From a virus, in IMG/VR virus record IMGVR_UViG_3300021409_000103, positions 1 to 28,543 of that record: 28,543 nucleotides of DNA. One strand, written 5' to 3'. A program made the position numbers and the translations under genes. The notes below the pieces were generated by a model. It was not told the DNA's origin. It saw only the letters and a program-made list of their open reading frames with translations, and ran no database searches. Of this stretch, positions 1 to 20,265 are shown piece after piece (position 1 is the first letter of the stretch; every line of letters begins with the position of its first letter).

Positions 1-684
1 TCATAGCTTCCTCTGGACTGCGACGACGCGGCCGATGATCTCGATCTCGCCGTCATAGGCGGTGAAGGGCGTTACCTCTTTCTTGTCGGACGAAACCTCG
101 ATCCCGCCGCCGGGGACGGGGCGCAGGCGTTTGATCATGCCGCAATCGGCATAGGTCAGCACCCAGATGCGATCTGCGGTGTTGAGCTGGCGCTGGGCGG
201 TGTCGATCAGGAGCAGATCGCTATCATGCAGGGTTGGCTCCATGCTGTCGCCGATGCCCTGGGCGAAGTAGAGCTTGTCAGGAGCTGAACGGGTGTAGCG
301 GCGCAGCCAGGCGCGCGGGAAGTGATGGACTTCCTCGGTGATTGGGACATCGAGATAGGTGGCACCCATGCCATAGGCGAGATCGATCTCTCGGACGGGA
401 ACAAGATCAAGCTCGGGCTCGCCAAAGAGCGGCGCTGGCTCCTTCGGCCGGAAAGGCATTCTCCCTTCGCTCGCGCCTAAGCGCAACCAGCCGGGAAAGT
501 CAGGATAAGCAGCCTTCAGCTTTTCGATCGTGCTGAGGCTTAGCCTTGTCTCGGCTGTGCCGTTGAAATGCCGATTGATTGTGGATGAGGCGAGGCCAGC
601 AGCCCGCGCAACCTCCGCAGAAGTCTTGCCCGAAAACCGGACGAGGTCGCGCACCAGCGCAGCGTCTTGCTCAAGCCCCTCCAT
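1..684 (-). CDS. Phage repressor, HTH plus S24 (LexA/CI-like) domain
   Basis: A 227-residue protein read leftward, ending at the window edge. The N-terminal part (about residues 8-60) looks like a helix-turn-helix, with the recognition segment around TSAEVARAAGLASSTINRHF. The C-terminal half is an S24 peptidase fold: the nucleophile is in GIGDSMEPTL (Ser147) and the general-base lysine is in MIKRL (Lys185). Family knowledge: such proteins dimerise on operators and keep the prophage silent. The usual Ala-Gly self-cleavage dipeptide is not obvious; the matching place reads AYGMG (103-107). The gene diverges from the small HTH gene at 773, the layout of Mu c and ner. Role as immunity repressor is inferred from domain and position. 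Confidence 0.88.
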   Translation of the reverse strand: MEGLEQDAALVRDLVRFSGKTSAEVARAAGLASSTINRHFNGTAETRLSLSTIEKLKAAYPDFPGWLRLGASEGRMPFRPKEPAPLFGEPELDLVPVREIDLAYGMGATYLDVPITEEVHHFPRAWLRRYTRSAPDKLYFAQGIGDSMEPTLHDSDLLLIDTAQRQLNTADRIWVLTYADCGMIKRLRPVPGGGIEVSSDKKEVTPFTAYDGEIEIIGRVVAVQRKL

Positions 685-7570: not shown

Positions 7571-8539
7571 ATGATCAACGTCACCAACTTGCCGGTCGAT
7601 GTCGAAGAAGTCCGGATGTGGCTGACTGGCTATCGCAATATGGCCGAACCGCCGATCCCATGGAGCCAGCTGGCCAAGGAAACGGAAATCCCGGCAGGCA
7701 CGCTCCAGCCCTTTGCTGCTGGCAAGTATCAGGGCGATAACGAGAAGATCGCGCGCAAGCTGTTCCAGTTCCGCCAATCGGTTGAACAGCAGGCGGTGCG
7801 GCAAAAGACGCTGCCGACCAATCCCGGCTTCTTCCAAACGGACACTTCGCAGCGCCTGCAGATGCTGCTTGAGGTGGCGCATATGGGCCGCATCACGGTG
7901 GGCGCGACCGGCCCCGGCACCGGCAAGACGATGACGGTGCGGGACTATGCCGAGCAGGCGCAGCCTGTCTGGATCGCCACGATGAAGCCGAGCTGCGCGC
8001 GGCTGGGCGCGATGGTGAAAGAGGTTCACCGCGCGCTGGGGCTGGAGCCGCGCAACATCCCCGTGGCCGAGGCTTCGCGCATTGTGCTTGACCGGGTGCG
8101 CCAGCGGCGCGGCCTGCTGGTGATCGATGAGGCGAACTACCTCACCATCGACAGCATCGAGGAAATCCGCAGCTGGCATGATGAGACCGGCGTTGGCATC
8201 TGCCTTCTGGGCAATGAAGAGCTGCTCGCCCGGATCGAGACCGGGCGGCACCGCGATCAGTTCGCCCGGCTCAACCGCCGGATCGCGATGCGCCACACCC
8301 AGCGCGTGCCGCTGCCGGGCGATGTGCGCGCCTTTTGCGATGCCTGGGGGATCACGCAGCCCGATATCCGCCACTATCTCGATACGATTGCGCGCACGCC
8401 CGATTCGGGCGGGCTGGGTGAATGCCAGCAGCTGATCGAAAGCGGATCGATGCTGGCGGCGGCTGATGATCGCGGCCTGTCACTGGCCGATCTGCGCGAG
8501 GCGCAGATGTTCCGCGCCACCAAGTGGATCAAGACGTGA
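7571..8539 (+). CDS. muB: MuB-type AAA+ ATPase, transposition target selector
   Basis: A 322-residue ATPase that in Mu coats target DNA, delivers it to the transposase and stimulates strand transfer. The N-terminal 75 residues hold a helix-turn-helix (IPWSQLAKETEIPAGTLQPF). The AAA+ core shows Walker A GATGPGTGKT (111-120, Lys119), Walker B LLVIDEANYL (182-191, Asp186-Glu187) and a sensor-like CLLGNEE (211-217). The C-terminal domain about 250-322 corresponds to the MuB DNA-binding tail. AGGAGGA at 7554-7560 is a strong ribosome site 10 bases before the ATG. It follows the transposase by 18 bp. Confidence 0.95.
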   Translation: MINVTNLPVDVEEVRMWLTGYRNMAEPPIPWSQLAKETEIPAGTLQPFAAGKYQGDNEKIARKLFQFRQSVEQQAVRQKTLPTNPGFFQTDTSQRLQMLLEVAHMGRITVGATGPGTGKTMTVRDYAEQAQPVWIATMKPSCARLGAMVKEVHRALGLEPRNIPVAEASRIVLDRVRQRRGLLVIDEANYLTIDSIEEIRSWHDETGVGICLLGNEELLARIETGRHRDQFARLNRRIAMRHTQRVPLPGDVRAFCDAWGITQPDIRHYLDTIARTPDSGGLGECQQLIESGSMLAAADDRGLSLADLREAQMFRATKWIKT

Positions 8540-9682: not shown

Positions 9683-9891
9683 ACGCGCCCTTTGCCAGCA
9701 AGGTGATCAAGGGCGGGGCCTCTGCCCACTTCCGCTTCACCCCGAAGCCTGCGCCGCTCTGCTATCACGAGGGCGAGGTCAACCGCTGTCCGCAGTGCGG
9801 CCACAAGGGCTGGCACGTTGGCCGTGTCACCGCCGAGTGCGCGCATTGCGGCCACCCGCTGCCATTGGCGCAGGCCACCATCACCAGATGA
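9679..9891 (+). CDS. Small zinc-ribbon protein
   Basis: A 70-residue protein. Four cysteines in two knuckles (CPQCGHKGWH, Cys37/Cys40; CAHCGHP, Cys54/Cys57) form a classic zinc ribbon of the rubredoxin-knuckle type. Start at 9679 overlaps the upstream stop. It precedes the Mor-like activator and may be a regulator or nucleic-acid binder; the function is not assigned. Confidence 0.72.
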   Translation: MNAPFASKVIKGGASAHFRFTPKPAPLCYHEGEVNRCPQCGHKGWHVGRVTAECAHCGHPLPLAQATITR

Positions 9892-10292
9892 TGACCATCC
9901 CCGCCGATCCCCTGCCTCAGGTGCTGGCCGATATCGCCATGATCGCGGGCGAGGAAGCGGCGCGCCGGGTGGCGGGCGCGGTGGGCGGGACGCGCGTCTA
10001 TATCCCGCCGCATCCCGGCCCTGATCACTGGCTGGCCAAGCTGGTGGGGCTGGAGGCCGCGCGCAAGATCGCCGATCATTTCACCGCCGGTGCACTCGGC
10101 GCGCGGGTGGATATCCCGCTTGGCGATACCGGCTTTATCGCCAGCCAGCAGGCGCGCATTGATGCCATGATCCTTGCCGGGCGCAGCGAGCGTGACATTG
10201 CGCTCGCCTGCGGATACACCGACCGGACCGTCCGCCGCCGCCGCGCCCGGCTCAAAGCAATGGACGATTCGCGCCAGGGCAAGCTGTTCTGA
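9888..10292 (+). CDS. Mor/C-family late transcription activator
   Basis: A 134-residue protein. GGTRVYIPPHPGPDHW (33-48) matches the Mor family hallmark GGxxVYIP, the dimerisation strand; the C-terminal helix-turn-helix is at about 97-121 (SERDIALACGYTDRTVRRRR). In Mu, Mor activates the middle promoter and its relative C activates late promoters by contacting RNA polymerase. Here only one such gene is visible, directly before the lysis genes, so it may do both jobs. A second, strand-like segment (GARVDIPLGD) follows the first. ATG 9888 (ATGA overlap) and 9891 are both possible starts. Confidence 0.82.
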   Translation: MMTIPADPLPQVLADIAMIAGEEAARRVAGAVGGTRVYIPPHPGPDHWLAKLVGLEAARKIADHFTAGALGARVDIPLGDTGFIASQQARIDAMILAGRSERDIALACGYTDRTVRRRRARLKAMDDSRQGKLF

Positions 10293-10300
10293 AGCGCTGA

Positions 10301-10324
10301 GCCGGACAGGCGTCCGGGGCGAAG
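10301..10324 (+). promoter_or_regulatory. Late control element copy 1 (palindromic)
   Basis: GCCGGAC-N4-GTCCGGGGCGAAG. The core is a perfect 6-bp inverted repeat, CCGGAC (10302-10307) and GTCCGG (10312-10317). The same 24-bp pattern, with only the four spacer bases changed, recurs at 18836-18859. It lies 30 bp before the endolysin gene and 8 bp after the Mor-like gene. Possible activator site for a late promoter, or a 5'-leader RNA hairpin. Confidence 0.65.
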
Positions 10325-10354
10325 CTCCCGCCAAATTCCACCATCCAGCGAGGC

Positions 10355-10939
10355 ATGACCCAGCCCCGCCTCACCATCCGCGCCCACATGGAAATCATCG
10401 CGCATGAAGCCATCGTCTTCGAGGCTTACAAGTGCAGCGCTGGCAAATGGACCTGGGGCGTCGGCGTCACCAATTCGAGCGGGCACATCGTGCATCCGCG
10501 ATACTTCCAGAGACCGACCAGCCTCACGCGCTGCCTCGAAGTCTATGAATGGCTGGTGCGCACCAAATATCTGCCCGAGGTGCTGCGTGCATTCCGGGGC
10601 CGCCAGTTGACCGAGGCGCAGCTTGCCGCCGCGCTGAGTTTCCACTGGAACACCGGTGCGATTGATCGTGCTGCCTGGGTCAATTCGTTCCTCGCTGGGC
10701 GCACCGCGCAGGCGCGGCGCGAATTCATGAACTGGCGCAATCCGCCTGAAATCATCCGCCGCCGCGAGGCCGAGCGCGATCTGTTTTTCGATGGCCGCTG
10801 GACCAATCGCGGCACGCGCGCGCGCATCATCCACCGCGTCAATCCCCGCCCGCCGCACAATCCGGTGTGGTCGAGCGCTGTGATGACCGAAATCGGGCCT
10901 CAGCTGCGCGAGGTGCTCGCGCGGGCGGAGCGCGGCTGA
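10355..10939 (+). CDS. Endolysin, glycoside hydrolase family 24 lysozyme
   Basis: A 194-residue muramidase that cleaves peptidoglycan at lysis. The active-site pattern E-x8-(D/C)-x5-T is present as Glu18, Cys27 and Thr33 in HEAIVFEAYKCSAGKWTWG; the Asp-to-Cys form is known in phage lysozymes. LTEAQLAAALSFHWNTGAI matches the family's second conserved block, and the protein ends with an extra 40-residue tail. No signal or signal-anchor sequence is seen, so a holin should be needed for export. An alternative start at 10388 would still keep Glu18. First gene after the Mor-like activator. Confidence 0.88.
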   Translation: MTQPRLTIRAHMEIIAHEAIVFEAYKCSAGKWTWGVGVTNSSGHIVHPRYFQRPTSLTRCLEVYEWLVRTKYLPEVLRAFRGRQLTEAQLAAALSFHWNTGAIDRAAWVNSFLAGRTAQARREFMNWRNPPEIIRRREAERDLFFDGRWTNRGTRARIIHRVNPRPPHNPVWSSAVMTEIGPQLREVLARAERG

Positions 10940-11592
10940 TGTGGCTGGCGCTGAAGCTGTTCTTCTCGGGCGCGTTTGAGAAAGGGATCAAAGCGCTCTC
11001 AAGTGGTGCTGAGTGGCTGCTTAAAGAGTGGTGGCGTGCGCCGCTGATCCTTTTTGCGCTGGGGTTTGCGGTGATGGCGTTCATCCGCGTTCCGGCGTTG
11101 CAGCGCGAGATCGCTGGGCTTGAGGCCAGTGTTGCCGCCGAGCAATCGGCCCATGCAGGCACCGTCGCCGCCTTTCTCGATGCCACCCGGCAGGCCGAAG
11201 CCGAAGCCAGGGACAATGCGCTGCGCGTCGAGCGCGAACAGGAGATCATCACCGATGCAACCATCCAGCACCTCGAAGGCGACCTTGCTGCTCTGCGCGC
11301 TCGCTTTGACCGCCTGCGGGCAGCAGCGTCCGCAGCCGCTTCCGGCAGCGCCTCGGCAGTTGATCTGCCCGGCACCGGCCACGCCGCCGGCCGAATTGAT
11401 CCAGCGGCCCCGGATCACCACCTTCGCGCCGCCGGAGCGCTGAGCGCGGCTGTCTCCTGCCCGATCGGGTTGGTGTGCCTCACCATCGATGAGGCCGAGG
11501 CCGCGAGCGAGGATGCGCACCGGTTCAACCGGCTGATCGACTGGGTAATCGCCCAGAGCGCCATCCCCTTCACGCCCGAGCCGCAGCCATGA
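10939..11592 (+). CDS. Rz: Rz-like inner-membrane spanin
   Basis: A 217-residue protein. One membrane segment (APLILFALGFAVMAFI, about 34-49) is followed by a long periplasmic coiled coil (about 53-130, LQREIAGLEASVAAEQSAHA), the form of an i-spanin, which fuses inner and outer membranes with the partner o-spanin. Start ATG 10939 shares a base with the endolysin stop. A lipoprotein gene lies within it in another frame, exactly as in Rz/Rz1. The extra hydrophobic and helical C-terminus (after about 165) is longer than in lambda Rz; it covers and runs past the nested gene. Confidence 0.85.
   Translation: MWLALKLFFSGAFEKGIKALSSGAEWLLKEWWRAPLILFALGFAVMAFIRVPALQREIAGLEASVAAEQSAHAGTVAAFLDATRQAEAEARDNALRVEREQEIITDATIQHLEGDLAALRARFDRLRAAASAAASGSASAVDLPGTGHAAGRIDPAAPDHHLRAAGALSAAVSCPIGLVCLTIDEAEAASEDAHRFNRLIDWVIAQSAIPFTPEPQP
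11255..11443 (+). CDS. Rz1: Rz1-like outer-membrane lipoprotein spanin, nested
   Basis: A 62-residue gene fully inside Rz in a different frame. It has a lipoprotein signal (KATLLLCALALTAC, lipobox LTAC, Cys21) and a short, proline-rich mature part of 42 residues (QQRPQPLPAAPRQL), both hallmarks of o-spanins. The protein would be lipid-anchored in the outer membrane and meet the Rz coiled coil in the periplasm. Start ATG 11255; ends near the final third of Rz. Confidence 0.85.
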   Translation: MQPSSTSKATLLLCALALTACGQQRPQPLPAAPRQLICPAPATPPAELIQRPRITTFAPPER

Positions 11593-11828
11593 AGGGCGCG
11601 CCGATGGATCTGGGTGAGCGCGGGCTTGAGCGCGCCGAGACGTTCGAGCGGATATCGAACGAGGCCGCGATCGCGCGCATCCGCAACAATCTGGCAGGCC
11701 TTGGCGAGGAATTCTGCATCACCTGTGGTGACCGGATCGAGGATGAACGCCGCGCCGCGCTGCCATCGGCGACGCGCTGCGTCACCTGTCAGGGCAAAGT
11801 CGAAAAGCAGAAGGCATCGCGGCGATGA
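11589..11828 (+). CDS. TraR/DksA-type zinc-finger protein
   Basis: A 79-residue protein with the C4 finger CITCGDRIEDERRAALPSAT followed by RCVTCQ (Cys43, Cys46, Cys64, Cys67). This is the TraR/DksA family; short phage versions can bind the RNA polymerase secondary channel and mimic ppGpp/DksA. The gene is coupled to Rz by an ATGA overlap, so it is expressed with the late genes and could tune late transcription or host shut-off (inference). Confidence 0.85.
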   Translation: MKGAPMDLGERGLERAETFERISNEAAIARIRNNLAGLGEEFCITCGDRIEDERRAALPSATRCVTCQGKVEKQKASRR

Positions 11829-12274
11829 TCCAGAACCTTGCCGCGCCGATGGGGGCCAAGAAATTCGCCTCGCTGTGGCTGCCAACGATGGCGGTGGCGG
11901 CGGCAATGCCCGATGCGGCGATCCCGCTGGGCGAGCGGTTTCTCATCGATGTCTTCGACCTGCCCGTTCCCGTTGTGACGTGCCTGCTCGGCGCGCTCGG
12001 CATCGTGCTGTCGCGCCCGTTTGCCCATATTTCGGAATATGATCTGGGCTGGAAGCTGCGCCTGCTGGTCGGCGTCATCATGCTGGTGATCGTGCAGCTG
12101 TGGATCATCGAAACCCGGCCCGGCTGGCTGTTCGCCTTTGTGGTGGCGATCGGGCTGGGTTTTGCCGGGCATTCGCTCCTCGAACAATTCGCCGAGCAGG
12201 CGGGCGAGCTCTTGCGCCGGATGCTGGGCAAGGCGGCAGACGCGATCATCGGAAAAGGACACGAAGGCCCATGA
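11825..12274 (+). CDS. Membrane protein, probable holin
   Basis: A 149-residue protein with several hydrophobic stretches: VPVVTCLLGALGIVLS (about 48-63), LLVGVIMLVIVQLWII (about 80-95) and FAFVVAIGLGFAG (about 103-115). It has a basic C-terminal helix. Lying in the lysis cassette after endolysin and spanins, it is the best holin candidate; small multi-pass proteins here in other transposable phages are often called holins. Function unproven. ATGA overlaps at both ends. Confidence 0.65.
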   Translation: MIQNLAAPMGAKKFASLWLPTMAVAAAMPDAAIPLGERFLIDVFDLPVPVVTCLLGALGIVLSRPFAHISEYDLGWKLRLLVGVIMLVIVQLWIIETRPGWLFAFVVAIGLGFAGHSLLEQFAEQAGELLRRMLGKAADAIIGKGHEGP

Positions 12275-12687
12275 GCCCCAGCGACACATTGGAACTGGCG
12301 ATCATCGCCTTCATCATTATCGGCATCGGCATGGCGATCTGGCGCGGCGGGGCGAAGAACCCGGTCGCCACCGGCACGCTCGACAAGAAGCTGGGTGCGA
12401 TCACCACCGAGGTCGCAGCGGTCAAGACCAAGGTGGCCGCCGTCGAAAAGCGCCTCACCAAGGTGGAGGGGGTCGCTGCCACCGCCGCCGATATCCAGCG
12501 GCTGGAAGGCCAGATCGCCGACTTCATGCGGGTGCTACCCGATATCGAGGCCCGCCAGCGCGCGCTTTCCGACAAGATGGCCGAGCATGCCAAGCAGGCG
12601 ACCGCCACGGCCACCACCGTCCAGCACATCGATAAGCAGCTCGACCGGATCTATGCCGTTGTCGTTCCCAAGGGGATGGAGAAGTGA
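12271..12687 (+). CDS. DUF2730-like phage membrane/coiled-coil protein
   Basis: A 138-residue protein with one N-terminal membrane segment (ELAIIAFIIIGIGMAIW, about 8-24) then an unbroken charged helix to the end (EVAAVKTKVAAVEKRLTKVE). The architecture and place before the small terminase genes match DUF2730 proteins of Mu-like prophages (Mu gp25 region). Role unknown. Start 12271 overlaps the holin stop. Confidence 0.7.
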   Translation: MSPSDTLELAIIAFIIIGIGMAIWRGGAKNPVATGTLDKKLGAITTEVAAVKTKVAAVEKRLTKVEGVAATAADIQRLEGQIADFMRVLPDIEARQRALSDKMAEHAKQATATATTVQHIDKQLDRIYAVVVPKGMEK

Positions 12688-12992
12688 GTTTCGCGGCCAA
12701 CCTTGCCGAAGGCATCGCGCGCGAGGCGCGGCTCTCGATCCTCAAGGCGCTGGCCGCCCAAGTCGATGGGCGGCTGTCCGACCTGATGCTCAAGAACATG
12801 CTCGACATCTACGGCTATCGCCGGGATCGCGACTGGATCCGCACCCAGATGAAGAAGCTTGCCGATCTTGGCGCGGTGAGCGTGGCCGACAGCGGCGAAG
12901 TGCTGTTCGCCCGGATCGAAGCGCCGGGCCGCGATCATCTGGAAGAGCGCAGCGTGATCGAAGGCGTGATGCGCCCCGGCGAGGCGCGCTGA
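12684..12992 (+). CDS. Mu gp26-like small winged-helix protein
   Basis: A 102-residue protein. The body resembles the winged-helix family found beside Mu-type terminases (VpaChn25_0724-like): ILKALAAQVDGRLSDLMLKN, then RDRDWIRTQMKKLADLGAVS. Helix, recognition helix and wing can be followed in order. It lies immediately before the small terminase gene, as does Mu gp26. Likely DNA-binding in packaging or gene control (inference). Confidence 0.72.
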   Translation: MSFAANLAEGIAREARLSILKALAAQVDGRLSDLMLKNMLDIYGYRRDRDWIRTQMKKLADLGAVSVADSGEVLFARIEAPGRDHLEERSVIEGVMRPGEAR

Positions 12993-12993
12993 G

Positions 12994-13578
12994 ATGGCCC
13001 GCTCGCCCAGGACCAAGCGGCGCGAGGGGCGCGGGCACCTGTCGTCGATCGACATGCTGCCTGATGAGGCCGAGGAGGATATCGTCTGGGCGCTGGAGCA
13101 ATTGCGCGAACGCAGCCTGCCCCAGAACACGATCCTGATGGAATTCAACGAGCGGCTGGCCGACAAGGGGATCGAGCCGATCAGCAAGAGCGCCTGGGGC
13201 CGCTATGCTGTGAGGAAGGCGATCCAGTTCAGGAAGCTCGATGAAGTCCAGCGGATCGGCGGCGAGCTGGTGCGCACGATGGATGCCAAGGAGCCCGATC
13301 AGGTCACCGTGGCGGTGGCCGAGCTGATCAAGGTGGCGGTGTTCGAAGTGCTCGAAGGCGGCGAGGTGACCACCAAAGGCATCATGGAGCTGAGCCGGGC
13401 GCTGCAAAGCGCGGTCGGCGCGCAGAAGGCGAGCGCAGAATATCGCGAACGGCTGGAGAAGGAAGCGGCGGCCCTGCGCGCCGAGATCGCCAAGAAGGTG
13501 GGCGAGATCAGCGAGCGCAAGGGCGTTTCGCCCGAGGCGCTGGCCGAGATCAACCGCGCGCTGCTGGGGCAAGGGTGA
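12994..13578 (+). CDS. terS: Small terminase-like protein (DUF3486, Mu gp27)
   Basis: A 194-residue protein of the DUF3486 type. Characteristic opening: RGHLSSIDMLPDEAEEDIVW, followed by NTILMEFNERLADKGIEPIS and a long C-terminal coiled coil. In Mu-like phages this gene precedes the terminase large subunit and is thought to be the small subunit, recognising phage DNA for packaging. The order gp26-gp27-gp28 is retained apart from an inserted mini-gene at 13578. Confidence 0.8.
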   Translation: MARSPRTKRREGRGHLSSIDMLPDEAEEDIVWALEQLRERSLPQNTILMEFNERLADKGIEPISKSAWGRYAVRKAIQFRKLDEVQRIGGELVRTMDAKEPDQVTVAVAELIKVAVFEVLEGGEVTTKGIMELSRALQSAVGAQKASAEYRERLEKEAAALRAEIAKKVGEISERKGVSPEALAEINRALLGQG

Positions 13579-13727
13579 TGGATCACGAGCCCGATTATCT
13601 GTTCGACGATGAGTTCGACGGCGATTGCGAAGATGATTGCCTCGATGATTGCGGCCTCATGCCTGATGGCCAGTGCATGCTTGCTGGCACCGAGTTCTGT
13701 GACTGGGAATGCGGAGGGCTCGGTTGA
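13578..13727 (+). CDS. Acidic six-cysteine mini-protein (49 aa)
   Basis: A 49-codon frame filling the gap between the terminase genes, with TGATG overlaps on both sides. The protein is very acidic (FDDEFDGDCEDDCLDDC) and contains six cysteines (17, 21, 25, 33, 41, 45) ending in GTEFCDWECG. Spacing suits metal binding or disulfide formation. I recall similar short sequences (C-x-M-x-DGxC-x-L-AGTExCDWEC) in other prophages, but no function is known to me. The compact fit strongly supports a real gene. Confidence 0.72.
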   Translation: MDHEPDYLFDDEFDGDCEDDCLDDCGLMPDGQCMLAGTEFCDWECGGLG

Positions 13728-15139
13728 TGGGTAACGCCCGCAACATCCCGGCAGAGCCCGGCGCGATCATGCTGCCCTATCAGTCGGCATGGATCAGGGA
13801 TGATGCGCGCCTCAAGCTGATCGAGAAATCGCGCCAGATCGGCCTTAGCTGGGCGACCGCCTATGCCGCTGTCTCGCGCACCGCGCTGATGGGCCAGCGT
13901 TACGATCAATGGGTCAGCAGCCGCGATGATATCCAGGCGCAGCTGTTTCTTGAGGATTGCAAGCTGTGGGCGGGCAACCTCAAGATCGCGGCAGAAGACC
14001 TGGGCGAAGTGGTGATCGATCCCAAGGATCGGCAGACTTCCTACACCCTACGCTTTGCCAATGGCCGGCGCATCAATTCGATGAGCTCCAATCCCAATGC
14101 CCAGGCGGGCAAGCGCGGCGGGCGCATTCTGGATGAATTCGCGCTGCATCCCGATCCGCGCAAGCTGTGGACCATTGCCTATCCCGGCATCACCTGGGGC
14201 GGCGCGATGGAGCTGATCAGCACGCATCGCGGCAGCAACAATTTCTTCAACCAGCTGGTGCGCGAGATCAAGGAACAGGGCAATCCCAAGGGCATCAGCC
14301 TTCACACTGTCACCCTGCAGGATGCGCTCGATCAGGGGTTTCTGTGGAAGCTCCAGCAGGCCTTGCCGCCCGATGACAAGCGCCAGGCGATGGACGAGGC
14401 CGCCTATTTCGATTTCATCCGATCGGGCGCGGCGGACGAAGAAAGCTTCCAGCAGGAATATATGTGCCGCCCGGCCGATGATGATGCGGCCTTCCTCGAC
14501 TATGATCTGATCGCGCGCAGCGAATATCCGCAAGGCATCGATTGGGAAGCGATCGAGGACGGCACGCTGTTCCTCGGCATCGATATCGGCCGCAAGAAAG
14601 ACCTCACCGTCCTATGGCTGATCGAGAAGCTGGGCGATGTGTTCTACACCCGCCGCGTCATCACCCTGCAGGCCATGACCAAGCCTGATCAGGAAAAGGT
14701 GATCTGGCCATGGATCGCCCAAGTGCTCGCAAACGGCGGCCGGGTGGCGATCGACAACACCGGGCTTGGCATCGGCTGGGTCGATGATGCCCAGGCGAAG
14801 TTCGGCAAATACCGGGTCGAAGGGGTCAATTTCACCGCGCAATCGAAAGAGGCGATGGCCTATCCGGTGCGCGGCGCGATGGAGGATCGCCGCCTGCGCA
14901 TCCCCTATGATCCCAAGGTCCGCGCCGATCTGCGCAGCGTTACCAAGCAGGTGACCGGCGCCGGAAACATCCGCTTCACCGCCGAACGCACGCCCGATGG
15001 CCACGCCGACAGGTTCTGGGCGCTGGCGCTGGCGATCCATGCGGCCAGCGATGGCAATGCGCCGCGCTGGCGGCCGATGAACGCGCCCGACGCTGGCGGC
15101 AAACCCCTCGATCTCGACGCGAACTGGATCCCGGCATGA
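13727..15139 (+). CDS. terL: Terminase large subunit (Mu gp28-like)
   Basis: A 470-residue packaging motor that pumps DNA into the prohead and cuts it. ATPase signs: atypical Walker A KSRQIGLSW (34-42) and Walker B RILDEFAL (133-140, Asp136-Glu137). The RNase H-like nuclease domain begins at LGIDIGRKKDLTVLW (Asp286), continues with VAIDNTGLGIG (about 340-350) and DGHADRFWALALA (about 424-436), giving the three expected acidic clusters. ATG 13727 shares a base with the upstream stop. Confidence 0.93.
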   Translation: MGNARNIPAEPGAIMLPYQSAWIRDDARLKLIEKSRQIGLSWATAYAAVSRTALMGQRYDQWVSSRDDIQAQLFLEDCKLWAGNLKIAAEDLGEVVIDPKDRQTSYTLRFANGRRINSMSSNPNAQAGKRGGRILDEFALHPDPRKLWTIAYPGITWGGAMELISTHRGSNNFFNQLVREIKEQGNPKGISLHTVTLQDALDQGFLWKLQQALPPDDKRQAMDEAAYFDFIRSGAADEESFQQEYMCRPADDDAAFLDYDLIARSEYPQGIDWEAIEDGTLFLGIDIGRKKDLTVLWLIEKLGDVFYTRRVITLQAMTKPDQEKVIWPWIAQVLANGGRVAIDNTGLGIGWVDDAQAKFGKYRVEGVNFTAQSKEAMAYPVRGAMEDRRLRIPYDPKVRADLRSVTKQVTGAGNIRFTAERTPDGHADRFWALALAIHAASDGNAPRWRPMNAPDAGGKPLDLDANWIPA

Positions 15140-15300
15140 AGACTGGCACGCATAATCTCGGCAGCAATGCCTTTGCCCATCGCACGCTGGTGCGCCTGTC
15201 GGATGGCTCCGCGGTGATCCGCCAGATGTGCCACGGGAGGACACAGGAGGTCACCCTGTCGGGCGAACAGATCGCGCTGCTGAAGGAGCTGCTGGCATGA
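15136..15300 (+). CDS. Hypothetical 54-aa protein
   Basis: A 54-codon frame between the terminase and portal genes with ATGA overlaps at both ends. The sequence is basic in the first half (FAHRTLVRLSDGSAVIRQ) and ends in an amphipathic helix (SGEQIALLKELLA). Short genes in this place (Mu gp28/gp29 junction) are usually of unknown function. Called because it fits the overlap chain precisely. Confidence 0.6.
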   Translation: MKTGTHNLGSNAFAHRTLVRLSDGSAVIRQMCHGRTQEVTLSGEQIALLKELLA

Positions 15301-17534
15301 ACTTCTTCACCAAGGCTCTCGCCCGCCTCACCAGCTCGCTCACCCAGATGCGGCATGGCGCGCAGTCGCTGATGCTGGGCGGCCTGCTGCGCCGCACCCG
15401 GTTCGATTATCGCGGCGCGGTGGGCGATATGCTTGATGCCTCGGTGGTGACAGCGCCGGTCGGCTGGGTGCAGCGCGCCCTGCCCGAGGCAAGGCTCGCC
15501 GCCCGCCAGCCCGGCAATGGCGGCCAGATCATCGAGCTGGATGATCACCCGATGCTGGCGCTGATCAGCAATCCCAACCCCTTCTATGGCGATATCGCGC
15601 TGTGGGGCGCGACCGTGCTCAGCATGATCATGGATGGGAATGGCTATTGGCTGAAGGTCCGCAGCGCATCGGGCAAGGTGGTGGAGCTGTGGTATGCCCC
15701 GCACTGGATGATCGAGCCCAAGCCCGCCAGTGATGGATCGGCCTTCATCGATCACTATGTCTACACGCCGGGCAACGGCGCGGGCCGCTATTATCTCCAG
15801 CCCGAGGACGTGGTGCATTTCCGCAACGGGCTCAATCCGCGCGCGCCTTACATGGGCCTTTCGCCGCTGGGCGGGGTGATCCGCGAAATTTTCTCCGACA
15901 TGGAAAGCAGCAATTTCGTCGCCAGCCTGCTGCGCAATATGGGCGTGCCCGGCGTGGTGATCAGCCCGAAGAACGGCGGCATGGCCAGCCCCGATGATGT
16001 CGCGGCGACCAAGGCGTGGTTTGACCAGGCGTTTGGCGGCGATAATCGCGGCAAGCCGATGGTGATGGGTGCGCCCACCGAAGTGCAGCCCTTCGGCTTC
16101 AACCCCCAGCAGATGAACCTGACCGAGGCGCGCGACGTTGCCGAGGAGCGCGTCTGCGCCGCGATCGGGATCCCGGCCGCAGTCGTCGGCTTTGGCGCTG
16201 GGCTGCAGCAGACCAAGGTCGGCGCGACGATGGAGGAGATGCGCAAGCTCGCCTGGCACAACGGCGTGCTGCCGCTGGCGCGCGCCATGGCGGACGAGCT
16301 GCAGCGCAGCCTGCTGCCCGATTTCGAGCGCGGCAATCGCCGGATCGAGCTTTACTGGGATACCTCCGATGTGCTCGCCCTGCAGGAGGATGAGAACCGC
16401 GCGACGGAGCGCAAGCTCAACGAGTTCAAGGCGGGCGCGATCACGCTTTACGATTACCTGGTCGAGACCGGGCGCGAGGCGGATGACAGCCACCGCTATT
16501 ACGTCCGGCCGTTCTCGGTGATCGAGGTGCCCGCCAACATCGCGGGCACAATGCAAGCGCGCCCGGTTGATGCTGGTGCGCGGGCGACGGCGGTTGCCCC
16601 GGCGCTGGACGAGCCCAAGGCGCAAAAGTCTCTGGCTCCCCCCGAGATCCCTGGTCGGCCTAACGCTCCGCTGCTTGAGACCAAGAATTCCGAGGACTGG
16701 CTTCCGGCCGGAGCGCGGCCCGCCAGCCCGCAAGCGATCGCGCGCGGCGAGCGCTTTGTCATCATGCTCAACCGGCAGGAAAACGGCCTGCGCAATGCCT
16801 TTGAAGGGGCGCTTACCCCCGCCTTTGAAAGCTGGGGCGATGCCGCCAGCAAGGTGGCGCGCGATGTGCTGATCGCCAATGGCTTCGAGGAAAAAGGCCG
16901 CTCTGGCGGGCCTACCGCTTCGCTGCATGAGGCCAGGTTCGAGACCAAGGAAGACAGCCGCCTCATCCAGCAGATCATCGACCTGCTCAATCTCGATGCC
17001 TGGGAACGCCAGCTCTCGAGCATCTATCAGGCGCAATACCTCGCTGTTGCCCGCCAAGTCGCCAGCGCGATCGAGGAATCGGGCTTTGGCACATCGATCC
17101 CCGATCCGGTGATGCGGCGGATCATCGCCACTGGCGGCACGCGCGCCGGGCTGGTTGATGTGCCGCGCCAGACGCGCAATGCCGTGTTCCAGGCGCTCGC
17201 TGAAGGCCGGGCCGAGGGCGAAGGTGCAACCGCGCTCGCCAACCGGATCGCCAACATGATCGAGGGCGGGCCATGGGGCAACGCCGAAACCCGCGCCCGC
17301 GTGATCGCCCGGACCGAGACCAAATACGCCCAGAACATCTCGACGCTGGAGGCAGGCAAGGGCAGCGGCGTTGCCGAATTCGTGGTGTTCGATGGCCGCT
17401 TTGGCGAGCCGCGATCCGAGGCCAGCCATATCGAGCGCGACGGCATGATCGTGTCTGCCGAGGATGCCCAGATCATGGCCGACAACATGCGGCCCAACTG
17501 CACCCTCAGCTTTGCGCCGCATTTCAGCCTTTAG
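15297..17534 (+). CDS. Portal protein fused to MuF-type head morphogenesis domain
   Basis: A 745-residue protein. Residues about 40-400 are an HK97-type portal (GNGYWLKVRSASGKVVELWY, QPEDVVHFRNG, LLRNMGVPGVVISPK, VCAAIGIPAAVVGFGAGLQQ). A low-complexity alanine/proline linker spans about 420-475. The C-terminal part ends with the SPP1 gp7/MuF signature RARVIARTETKYAQN (about 665-680) and a final FVVFDGRFGEPRSEASHIER. Portal normally forms the DNA-entry vertex; MuF proteins act in head assembly and may enter the host with DNA. Mu carries them as separate genes (gp29, gp30), while here one frame encodes both. ATG 15297 overlaps the upstream stop. Confidence 0.9.
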   Translation: MNFFTKALARLTSSLTQMRHGAQSLMLGGLLRRTRFDYRGAVGDMLDASVVTAPVGWVQRALPEARLAARQPGNGGQIIELDDHPMLALISNPNPFYGDIALWGATVLSMIMDGNGYWLKVRSASGKVVELWYAPHWMIEPKPASDGSAFIDHYVYTPGNGAGRYYLQPEDVVHFRNGLNPRAPYMGLSPLGGVIREIFSDMESSNFVASLLRNMGVPGVVISPKNGGMASPDDVAATKAWFDQAFGGDNRGKPMVMGAPTEVQPFGFNPQQMNLTEARDVAEERVCAAIGIPAAVVGFGAGLQQTKVGATMEEMRKLAWHNGVLPLARAMADELQRSLLPDFERGNRRIELYWDTSDVLALQEDENRATERKLNEFKAGAITLYDYLVETGREADDSHRYYVRPFSVIEVPANIAGTMQARPVDAGARATAVAPALDEPKAQKSLAPPEIPGRPNAPLLETKNSEDWLPAGARPASPQAIARGERFVIMLNRQENGLRNAFEGALTPAFESWGDAASKVARDVLIANGFEEKGRSGGPTASLHEARFETKEDSRLIQQIIDLLNLDAWERQLSSIYQAQYLAVARQVASAIEESGFGTSIPDPVMRRIIATGGTRAGLVDVPRQTRNAVFQALAEGRAEGEGATALANRIANMIEGGPWGNAETRARVIARTETKYAQNISTLEAGKGSGVAEFVVFDGRFGEPRSEASHIERDGMIVSAEDAQIMADNMRPNCTLSFAPHFSL

Positions 17535-17544
17535 GAGAACCCCG

Positions 17545-18267
17545 ATGCAGACCAAGAACATGACCGTCACCGAGATGGATGATGCAGGCAAGGGCCTTGC
17601 CCTGATCGCCAATCTCAACACTGTCGATCACGATGGCGACACCTATGCCCCTGGCGCTTTCAGCTGGAAGGAACAATGGGCCCCGCTGCTCACCGCCCAT
17701 GATCGCCACGGCATGCCGTTCGGCAAGGCGCGCGTTTATGAGCAGGGCGACAAGGCGTATGCCGAGCTGCACCTTAATCTGGAAACGCAGGCCGGGCGCG
17801 ATTGGCACTCGGCGCTGAAGTTCGATCTGGCCACCGGCAAGAGCGTGCAGGAATGGTCCTATGGCTACAACGCCATCGACTTCGAATTCCGCGCCGATGC
17901 GCAAAACCGGGTGCGCGTGCTCAAGCAGCTCGATGTGCATGAAGTCTCCACCGTGGTGCGCGGCGCCGGGCGCGGGACGGGCACGATCATGGTCAAAGGG
18001 CTGAATGGTGCGCTGAAGCAGCAGGCGTTTGATGACCTGTTTGCTGATCTGGGCCATATGGTCACCGCGCTGCAGGGCGATCCCGAACTGCTTTCGGCCA
18101 CCGGCATGAAGCAGCTCAAGGAAATCCACGCCTCGCTGGGGCTGGCGATCGAGCGGGCGGGCACCGATCCGGCTGCTGCCGATGCAGAAGCCAAGGCTCT
18201 GATCGAGGCTGAGATGGCGCGTCACCTGACACGCGATGCGCGGCTGCGTTTTGGCGGCCTCAAGTAG
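17545..18267 (+). CDS. HK97-family prohead protease (S78)
   Basis: A 240-residue protease that removes the scaffold part of the capsid protein during maturation. Family blocks: IANLNTVDHDGDTYAPGAFS, LTAHDRHGMPFGKA (candidate catalytic His52), GKSVQEWSYGYNAIDFEF (candidate Ser105) and VHEVSTVVRGAGRGTG. The protein extends about 80 helical residues beyond the protease domain, perhaps acting as scaffold. AGGAGA at 17533-17538 is the ribosome site. Last gene before the inverted nuclease gene. Confidence 0.9.
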   Translation: MQTKNMTVTEMDDAGKGLALIANLNTVDHDGDTYAPGAFSWKEQWAPLLTAHDRHGMPFGKARVYEQGDKAYAELHLNLETQAGRDWHSALKFDLATGKSVQEWSYGYNAIDFEFRADAQNRVRVLKQLDVHEVSTVVRGAGRGTGTIMVKGLNGALKQQAFDDLFADLGHMVTALQGDPELLSATGMKQLKEIHASLGLAIERAGTDPAAADAEAKALIEAEMARHLTRDARLRFGGLK

Positions 18268-18293
18268 CGCAGCGATAGGCCACAAGAACGCAC

Positions 18294-18315
18294 CCCGCCA
18301 GAAACCCGCCAGAAA
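18294..18315 (+). repeat. Perfect tandem 11-bp repeat
   Basis: CCCGCCAGAAA occurs twice back to back (18294-18304, 18305-18315). An 11-bp period is close to one DNA turn, so both copies would face the same side of the helix. Confidence 0.85.
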
Positions 18316-18359
18316 GCCTCAGGATCGCTTCAAGGCCCGCTACCAGCCAAAATTCGCGC

Positions 18360-18406
18360 AAGGGGGTTCTTAGGGCCTCTTAAATCGCCGCTAAGGGGGT
18401 TTTTAT
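18360..18406 (+). repeat. AAGGGGGTT direct repeat pair, 33-bp period
   Basis: AAGGGGGTTCTTA (18360-18372) and AAGGGGGTTTTTA (18393-18405) agree at 12 of 13 positions and lie 33 bp apart, about three helical turns. They lie just beyond the 3' end of the nuclease gene. Confidence 0.8.
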
Positions 18407-18413
18407 CGAAAGG

Positions 18414-18767
18414 TTAGCGGCACCAGTTGCGGCGCTGAGGCCATCGGCTGGCGAGACCTTCGCGGATCAGCTGTTCGCCGATCCCATCAAACCGGGCGAG
18501 CGTGCGGCCATACCGATCCACTCCGGTGCGGTGCAATTCAACTGGGCGGCCCGAATTGAGCAGCACCACAAGGCGATCGCGCGCCCGGATCGCCAGCCTC
18601 GTTTCTTTCTTGCAGCGACCTTTCAATTCGGGTGCATCAATATCGGCGATGCGGATTTTCTCGCCCTGCCACCACAAGGTGTCGCCATCATGGACGCAGT
18701 GCCAACGTCTGGCAGGCGGAGGTTCGCAGACCGAGATCGAGATCGCAAGAGCGGTAAAAAGCAACAT
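18414..18767 (-). CDS. Secreted thermonuclease-like protein (SNase fold)
   Basis: A 117-residue nuclease on the opposite strand. A short hydrophobic start (MLLFTALAISISVC) looks like a signal peptide. All staphylococcal nuclease catalytic sites are recognisable with correct spacing: DGDTLWW (Asp29), Arg39, Asp44 and Glu47 in IRIADIDAPEL, and Arg88 in VDRYGRTLA. The family cuts single- and double-stranded nucleic acids with calcium. It stands alone between protease and capsid genes in an otherwise co-directional block, with flanking gaps of 146 and 175 bp: the pattern of a moron. Start 18767 is the most upstream possible because of an in-frame stop. Confidence 0.87.
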   Translation of the reverse strand: MLLFTALAISISVCEPPPARRWHCVHDGDTLWWQGEKIRIADIDAPELKGRCKKETRLAIRARDRLVVLLNSGRPVELHRTGVDRYGRTLARFDGIGEQLIREGLASRWPQRRNWCR

Positions 18768-18942
18768 CGGTTTGCGCTATCGCCGTCATCGCGTTAATCA
18801 ACACTGACTTCCTCCACATTGGCAGCACTTACACAGCCGGACATCTGTCCGGGGCGAAGGCTCGCGTCTCATCCTCCACAAACGGCTTCGAGTTTCGAAC
18901 CGGCCTTCGCGCTGAGCGGGCCGCCAAGTGGAGATGATCACA
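18768..18942. promoter_or_regulatory. Divergent region between nuclease and capsid genes
   Basis: A 175-bp gap containing the leftward nuclease promoter, if it has its own, and a rightward capsid promoter. The half next to the nuclease gene (18768-18835) is relatively A/T-rich. The late control element is at 18836-18859, about 84 bp before the capsid start. TTCGAGTTTCGAA (18887-18899) is a small near-palindrome. I could not assign -35/-10 boxes with confidence. Confidence 0.6.
18836..18859 (+). promoter_or_regulatory. Late control element copy 2 (palindromic)
   Basis: GCCGGAC-N4-GTCCGGGGCGAAG with arms CCGGAC (18837-18842) and GTCCGG (18847-18852); spacer ATCT in place of AGGC in copy 1. Orientation relative to the downstream gene is the same as at 10301-10324. 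Confidence 0.65.
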
Positions 18943-20265
18943 ATGCCGATCGAGAATTTGAGCCTGGAGCAAGCCCAGGAGAAGCTGCAGGCGAAGTCCG
19001 CCGAGCTCAACGCCCTGATGAAGGAGGCAGCCCGCGAGGACGGCACCTATGATTTCGCCCAGGTGAAGTCGGTCAAGGACATCAAGAGCAATTCGGATCT
19101 GGTCAAGGCCATCCGTGAGCGCAACGCCGAGCTGGATGAGCTGGGTCAGTTCGTCGAAGGCCAGCGCGAGATCAAGCAGGCCGAGCGCGATCAGCAGATG
19201 CGCGAAAAGGGCCTGCGCGGTTTCCCGCTCCCCGGCGCTGGCGGCGGTAATGGTGGCGGTCAGCCTGCCAACCAGATGCAATTCAAGTCGCTGGGCCAGA
19301 TGGTGGCCGAGGCCAAGCAGTTCAAAGCCTGGCACGATGCCGGTGCGGCTGGCGGCGTGACGCTGCAGTTCGATCAGTACCTGCCTTCCGATTTCCTCGC
19401 CAAGTCTGCCCAGTTTGAAACCATGGGCAACAAGGCGCTGATGACGCGCGCGGCCGGTTTCGCGCCGGAAAGCATCCGCCTGCCCGGTTTTGTCGAGGCT
19501 CCGACCCGTCCGATCCAGTTGCTCGACATTCTGCCGATGGGCCGGGTCAGCCAGGCGGCGGTGCCTTACATGGAAGAAACCACCCGCACCCACGCTGCTG
19601 CTGAAACGGCGGAAGGCGAAACCTTTGCTGAAAGCACGTTCGTCTTCACCGAGCGCAGTGTGCCGATCCAGAAGATCACCGACAGCCTGCCCGTCACCGA
19701 CGAGCAGCTGGAGGACGTGGCGCTGATCGAAAGCTACATCAACGCGCGCCTCGCCTTTGGTGTGCGCCAGCGTCTCGATCGCCAGTGCATGATCGGCGAT
19801 GGCACCCCCCCCAATCTGCGCGGCATCCTCAACACCGCTGGCATCCAGACCGAGGCCAAGGGCGCTGATCCGGTGATGGATGCTTTCTATCGCTCGATGA
19901 CGAAGATCCGGCTGACGGGCCGTGCGGTGCCGACGCACCATGTGATGCACCCGCTCGACTGGCAGCAGATCCGGCTGACCCGCACTGCCGATGGCATCTA
20001 CATCTTCGGCGCGCCGACCGAGGCCGGGCCGGAGCGCCTGTGGGGCCTGCCCGTCGTGCTCAATGATGCGATGGCCGAGAACACCGGGCTTGTCGGCAGT
20101 TTTGATCCGGCATGGATCACCCTGTTTGAACGGCGCGGCATCGATATCCAGGTGGGCTTCACCGGCGACCAGTTCACGCGCGGCCGCCGCACCGTGCGCG
20201 CCGATATGCGTGCCGCCCTGGTGGTGATGCGCCCGGCTGCGTTCTGCACTGTCACTGGCATCTAA
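18943..20265 (+). CDS. HK97-type major capsid protein
   Basis: A 440-residue capsid protein. Residues about 5-95 form a charged coiled coil (LSLEQAQEKLQAKSAELNAL), the delta domain that serves as built-in scaffold and is cut off by the upstream protease. A glycine-rich linker follows (PLPGAGGGNGGGQPAN). The HK97 fold is recognisable by VPYMEETTRTHAAAETAEGE, KITDSLPVTDEQLEDVALIE, RLDRQCMIGDGTPPNLRGIL and LWGLPVVLNDAMAENTGLVG. GTG 18928 and ATG 18934 are also in frame; ATG 18943 is best placed after GGAG (18930-18933). Confidence 0.94.
   Translation: MPIENLSLEQAQEKLQAKSAELNALMKEAAREDGTYDFAQVKSVKDIKSNSDLVKAIRERNAELDELGQFVEGQREIKQAERDQQMREKGLRGFPLPGAGGGNGGGQPANQMQFKSLGQMVAEAKQFKAWHDAGAAGGVTLQFDQYLPSDFLAKSAQFETMGNKALMTRAAGFAPESIRLPGFVEAPTRPIQLLDILPMGRVSQAAVPYMEETTRTHAAAETAEGETFAESTFVFTERSVPIQKITDSLPVTDEQLEDVALIESYINARLAFGVRQRLDRQCMIGDGTPPNLRGILNTAGIQTEAKGADPVMDAFYRSMTKIRLTGRAVPTHHVMHPLDWQQIRLTRTADGIYIFGAPTEAGPERLWGLPVVLNDAMAENTGLVGSFDPAWITLFERRGIDIQVGFTGDQFTRGRRTVRADMRAALVVMRPAAFCTVTGI

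Follow-up and report, generated by a model that had tools for sequence, protein, structure and literature searches.

We analysed a 24-bp palindromic element that occurs twice in the IMG/VR virus record IMGVR_UViG_3300021409_000103 (28,543 bases, the whole stretch being referred to here as the window). Judged by its gene content, the window is part of a Mu-like phage of Erythrobacter-type alphaproteobacteria: it carries the Mu-type transposition genes for the Mu A transposase (Pfam DDE_2, 7.2e-54), MuB (Phage-MuB_C, 8e-11) and Gp27 (Phage_Mu_Gp27, 2e-31) as well as GemA (1.8e-32), together with genes for a CI-like repressor, a lysozyme, a terminase, a portal protein, a prohead protease and an HK97-type capsid protein, the last being 57.8-59.5% identical to the capsids of the Sinorhizobium phages StopSmel and Aussie. 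The element, GCCGGACNNNNGTCCGGGGCGAAG (GCCGGAC-N4-GTCCGGGGCGAAG), is matched exactly at two places on the + strand, 10301-10324 and 18836-18859, which are 8,535 bp apart. Copy 1 lies between the gene for a Mor/C-type late transcription activator, whose stop is 8 bp before it, and the lysozyme gene, and copy 2 precedes the capsid gene, so that the same dyad stands before each late operon, as in late control of the Mu type. The preliminary description of this DNA had given just this arrangement, and its statement that there are only two copies also held: no third was found in the window, even at 3 mismatches, or in relatives of 37-39 kb, and 100 dinucleotide shuffles of the window gave 0 matches, so that no chance copy is expected.

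The symmetric part of the element is a 16-bp dyad built around a 2-bp centre (CCGGACAN and NTGTCCGG), with one inner A/C mismatch in copy 1. The invariance that had been claimed for the arms and for a 3' GGCGAAG flank was borne out in part. The outermost base of those arms is unpaired (G opposite G), and on the 3' side of the dyad GGGGCG is kept in relatives of both operator kinds described below, whereas the AAG is not; flank bases G9, G10, C11 and G12 are each present in 89-100% of 39 close-family copies.

Relatives of the window were gathered by a pattern scan of IMG/VR and by protein-led searches, and prophages were added to these. All close relatives (L020-L026, L040, L042, L102, L103, L107 and others) carry the dyad both after the Mor/C-type activator gene and before the capsid gene, and long or full-length records have exactly two dyads, at those two places only. 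In the 3.2-Mb genome of Erythrobacter tepidarius, both exact dyad copies are inside a prophage. Two kinds of operator, GGACANNTGTCC and GGAACNNGTTCC, are found among the close relatives, and any one phage has the same kind at both places. None of the named phages searched for the element has similar DNA around copy 1.

We also searched for paired dyads without supplying their sequence. At about 60 Mor-like loci, any 16-bp dyad no more than 300 bp from the activator stop was accepted if it recurred 3-13.5 kb downstream. In a control version, with the first region shortened to about 80 bp, a score threshold of 28 and the ends of other open reading frames at the same loci as controls, pairs were found at 28 of 61 activator gene ends compared with 12 of 2,056 control gene ends. 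These pairs differ widely in sequence (GGTGACAN2TGTCACC, CCCGACAN2TGTCGGG, CGTCCGATTTCGGACG and TTGCCATTTTTGGCAA are examples): the two copies within a phage agree at a mean of 14.8 of 16 bases (lowest 12), compared with 8.7 of 16 between phages. Phages less closely related to the window have their second copy ahead of prohead-protease-like genes, which is the position of Mu PI; these genes were called by eye from N-termini of the 'IFRAGTH' type, and Pfam gave no match. Two metagenomic fragments, L009 (4230-4252, - strand) and L012 (4109-4131, - strand), have CCGGACAAATGTCCGGGGCGAAG some 90 bp upstream of a protease-like gene, also called by eye, and no Mor-like gene was found on either fragment.

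The protein encoded at 9888-10292 belongs, by profile comparison, to the Mor/C family, matching PHROG 836 ('late transcriptional activator') with E 1.4e-24 over residues 7-134. An AlphaFold2 (AF2) model of it (predicted local distance difference test score 81) has a helix-turn-helix (HTH) at residues 101-131, of which residues 112-131 form the recognition helix, and the HTH of the model aligns with Mu C (PDB 9l0x, 9l0x_I; VIA-align) with Z 6.5 and a root-mean-square deviation of 2.4 over 53 residues. Searching the PDB by sequence with the activator returned no Mor/C structure.

The recognition helix tracks the operator sequence. Thr at residue 114 goes with GACA half-sites in 21 of 21 phages and Gly or Ala with GAAC in 14 of 14, with no exception between these two cores. 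Residue 116 is similarly related to half-site base 6, Arg occurring with G (27/28), Glu with C (4/4) and Phe, Tyr or His with T (7/7), while Lys is undecided. On a tree of the N-terminal part of the activator, from which the HTH was excluded, the residue, the operator and the combined state each change 7 times, and therefore all the switches coincide; the near neighbours L022 and L023 differ both in the helix and in both operators. Patterns derived from this rule recovered further operators, overlooked in the blind search (L027, L104, L107, L108, L114, L118 and L138), including GCGACAGCTGTCGC in the Glu-bearing L138. One Thr-Val-Arg-Arg helix, that of L061, is accompanied by a different pair, GCGGCCAGCTGGCCGC/GCGGTCAGCTGGCCGC, at about 1425-1440 and 8281-8296, which suggests that neighbouring residues (Val-Ser-Val instead of Tyr-Thr-x) also set specificity.

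To define the promoters, all copies were aligned on the dyad centre and the mean number of matches to TATAAT was scored at each offset. The matches peak at offset +33, with 2.24 of 6 in near relatives and 2.79 in far ones against a background of about 1.1, and position 2 of the hexamer is A in 71% (near) and 82% (far). This peak would place the dyad centre at about -44.5, and transcription should start near +45 from the centre. At a distance of 43-47 bp from the dyad centre, 26 of the 41 first copies and 9 of the 41 second copies have an ATG, compared with 1-7% elsewhere. From this spacing and the predicted start, the lysozyme mRNA should be leaderless, as should some of the second transcripts in other phages. 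Neither window site has a sigma-70 promoter with both hexamers, which is the expectation for activator-dependent promoters: there is no recognisable -35, and the -10-like hexamer stands at a fixed distance across the relatives and is weak in the window. The features are listed in Table 1.

Table 1. Proposed late-control features of the window.
Feature	Position	Strand	Remarks
CI/S24-type (CI-like) repressor	1-684		Pfam
Mor/C-type late transcription activator	9888-10292	+	Start ATG 9888 or 9891; C-terminal helix-turn-helix
Codons of T114-V115-R116-R117 in the recognition helix	10227-10238	+	Half-site positions 3/2 covary with residue 114 and position 6 with residue 116
Operator copy 1, 16-bp dyad CCGGACAG and GCGTCCGG	10302-10317	+	Same place in all close relatives
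Conserved GGCG 3' of dyad	10318-10321	+	-35 region of the predicted promoter; putative role
Predicted -10 hexamer, lysis promoter (CATCCA)	10342-10347	+	+33 from dyad centre
Predicted transcription start, lysis promoter	10354-10357	+	About 10354, at or beside the lysozyme ATG (10355)
Phage lysozyme/endolysin	10355-10939	+	Pfam Phage_lysozyme E 1.7e-11; leads first late block (lysis, terminase, portal, protease)
Operator copy 2, 16-bp dyad CCGGACAT and CTGTCCGG	18837-18852	+	Before capsid gene in all close relatives
Predicted -10 hexamer, capsid promoter (CACAAA)	18877-18882	+	Predicted start about 18889, ~54-nt leader
Major capsid protein, HK97 type	18943-20265	+	Pfam Phage_capsid E 1.8e-40; leads second late block

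Downstream of copy 2, the capsid leader of many relatives (L020, L021, L024, L025, L026, L040, L042, L062, L063, L102, L103 and L110) can fold into a stem in which the capsid Shine-Dalgarno sequence is paired (TCTCCAC...GTGGAGA, with variants of which GTCTTCGT...ACGGAGAC is an example); the 5' arm of the stem starts near the predicted transcription start, and accessibility of the Shine-Dalgarno sequence is far below that in shuffled leaders. A hairpin of this kind in the window's own capsid leader was considered and rejected: although supported in many relatives, its complementary stretch in the window lies upstream of the predicted start.

Taken together, these data make it very probable that both palindromes serve as operators for the Mor/C-type activator encoded by the phage itself, with one activator serving two late promoters. 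Under this model, the activator would be produced late in the early operon and would probably bind as a dimer, as does Mu Mor, with one half-site (CCGGACA) read by each of the two recognition helices. From its site at about -44.5, the bound activator would aid host RNA polymerase at two promoters with no recognisable -35 and a weak -10: P1, before the lysozyme gene, where transcription would start at the ATG or a few bases from it, and P2, before the capsid gene, which would give the leader of about 54 nt. A single early protein could thus turn on the lysis and packaging genes together with the head and tail genes. The preliminary description had spoken of a new late-gene operator with one activator and two late promoters. 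The scheme is upheld by the way the pairs follow the Mor/C-type gene, by the change of the copies with the helix residues and by the -10-like hexamer at the expected spacing; the word 'new' suits the operator sequence and the recognition rule, but the system as such is of the Mu C type and not new.

Several observations weigh against this interpretation. The Pfam Mor match of the activator (E 3.4e-05, 24.2 bits) is slightly under the gathering cut-off of 24.9, and TrpR and other unrelated HTH folds tie with Mu C in the alignment of the AF2 model. About half of the Mor-like loci, those of StopSmel and Aussie included, had no pair in the blind search, and the predicted -10 hexamers of the window are poor matches to the consensus. 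As for the recognition rule, it was derived from the same data that were used to test it; four Thr-bearing activators have other cores (L061, L115, L119 and L121), one Gly activator has CAAC, and His and Gln are inconsistent. Moreover, only 3 of the 7 tree contrasts have strongly supported branches, so that a formal sign test cannot reach 0.05.

The preliminary description offered an RNA hairpin with a common role as the alternative. GCCGGAC-N4-GUCCGGGGC would then fold in both late mRNA leaders and might act, for instance, in stability, translation control or antitermination. A 6-bp stem is indeed predicted in both transcripts, and the exchanges of GGAC/GTCC for GGAA/TTCC are compensatory, as a stem would also need. 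However, the complementarity reaches up to the 2-nt centre, where an RNA loop could not use it (at dyad position 2, 82% of close-family copies and 88% of the whole set are complementary, while position 1 is at chance), and changes in the arms go with changes in residues of a DNA-binding helix. Judged from the -10-like hexamer and from the lysozyme ATG, which is about 45 bp away from the centre, the dyad would also lie outside the transcripts of these promoters, upstream of their predicted starts. No Rfam family matched, and folding of the leaders is unremarkable compared with shuffled sequences (z -1.41 and 0.07). We therefore regard a hairpin function as very unlikely.

The dyads might instead be bound by a different protein, either the CI-like repressor of the phage or a regulator of the host, acting negatively on the late genes. 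The phage does encode a repressor of the CI/S24 type, and repression could result from a dyad that overlies a promoter region. Yet the dyads are beside late genes, the early control region has none, occurrence and sequence of the pair go with the Mor/C-type gene and its helix residues, and both exact copies in the host genome are within the prophage, which leaves this explanation marginally less probable than the hairpin. Least probable, and close to negligible, is that the pair plays no part in transcription and is instead a duplicated or selfish sequence or a site of recombination or packaging. Two near-identical copies per genome could stem from duplication or conversion, but only the 16-bp dyad and a short flank are common to the copies, their positions relative to genes, -10-like hexamer and ATG are fixed, and their sequence follows the activator.

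Beyond the assignment of the palindromes as operators, we consider it reasonably likely that late operators of Mor/C activators in alphaproteobacterial Mu-like phages are read by a modular helix code, in which residue 114 specifies bases 3/2 (Thr, CA; Gly or Ala, AC) and residue 116 specifies base 6 (Arg, G; Glu, C; Phe, Tyr or His, T), that specificity has switched repeatedly through joint changes of two or three residues and of both operators, and that the lysis transcript is leaderless, starting from the ATG. The open-access papers searched describe neither a recognition rule for Mor/C proteins nor operators of these phages, and the link between helix and operator is the surprising part of the finding. 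On the sequence evidence, the Mu scheme, in which one phage-made activator serves several late operons, extends through a large and little-studied alphaproteobacterial Mu-like group in which operators and promoters can be identified. Because each phage has two matched operators, the family amounts to a natural experiment on the joint evolution of a regulator and its sites, and the repeated switches yield directly testable residue-to-base predictions for Mor/C activators. Switching of operator and helix could also explain why related phages need not activate one another's late genes.

Two other genes of the window deserve mention. A gene for a DksA/TraR-type zinc-finger protein (11589-11828, + strand) is within the first late block; proteins of this type act on RNA polymerase, and its product could matter in late transcription. 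A small staphylococcal-nuclease-like gene (18414-18767, - strand; Pfam SNase, 1.3e-06) lies between the protease gene and operator copy 2. A tRNA search of the window was negative.

Comparison with known systems suggests that this one works like Mu C at Plys and PI. Like Mu C, the activator is an HTH protein of the Mor/C family. Its gene immediately precedes the lysis gene, a probable target promoter of the activator stands between the two (Plys in the Mu record), and a further probable target lies near head protease or capsid genes (PI). The late promoters activated by Mu C also have a dyad element upstream and non-consensus -10 and -35 sequences (PMC4461284, PMC4287176). Mu, however, has four C operators (Plys, PI, PP and Pmom) compared with two per phage here, and the 16-bp dyads of these phages are near perfect; at the Mu gene positions inspected, no dyad with at least 7 of 8 pairs was seen, and the exact Mu operators were not recovered. 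Two further differences are that the predicted start is at the lysozyme ATG and that the second promoter in the window's clade precedes the capsid gene, not the protease gene. The geometry is close to that of Mu Mor at Pm, where a 16-bp dyad from -51 to -36 is centred at -43.5 (about -44.5 here) and a -10 is present with no -35 (PMC4287176). Whereas Mor drives the middle operon that makes C, one activator here appears to do both jobs, as the window yielded no further homologue of Mor/C. The phages StopSmel and Aussie have the same order of Mor, lysozyme, terminase, portal, protease and capsid genes, unlike the window in that no matching dyad pair was found in them. The nearest named relative, the Erythrobacter tepidarius prophage (NZ_MUYJ01000010), has the same arrangement with operators at both places and an activator that is 85% identical; its operators are GGAACNNGTTCC and its helix is Gly-Val-Arg-Lys, in contrast to GGACANNTGTCC and Thr-Val-Arg-Arg in the window.

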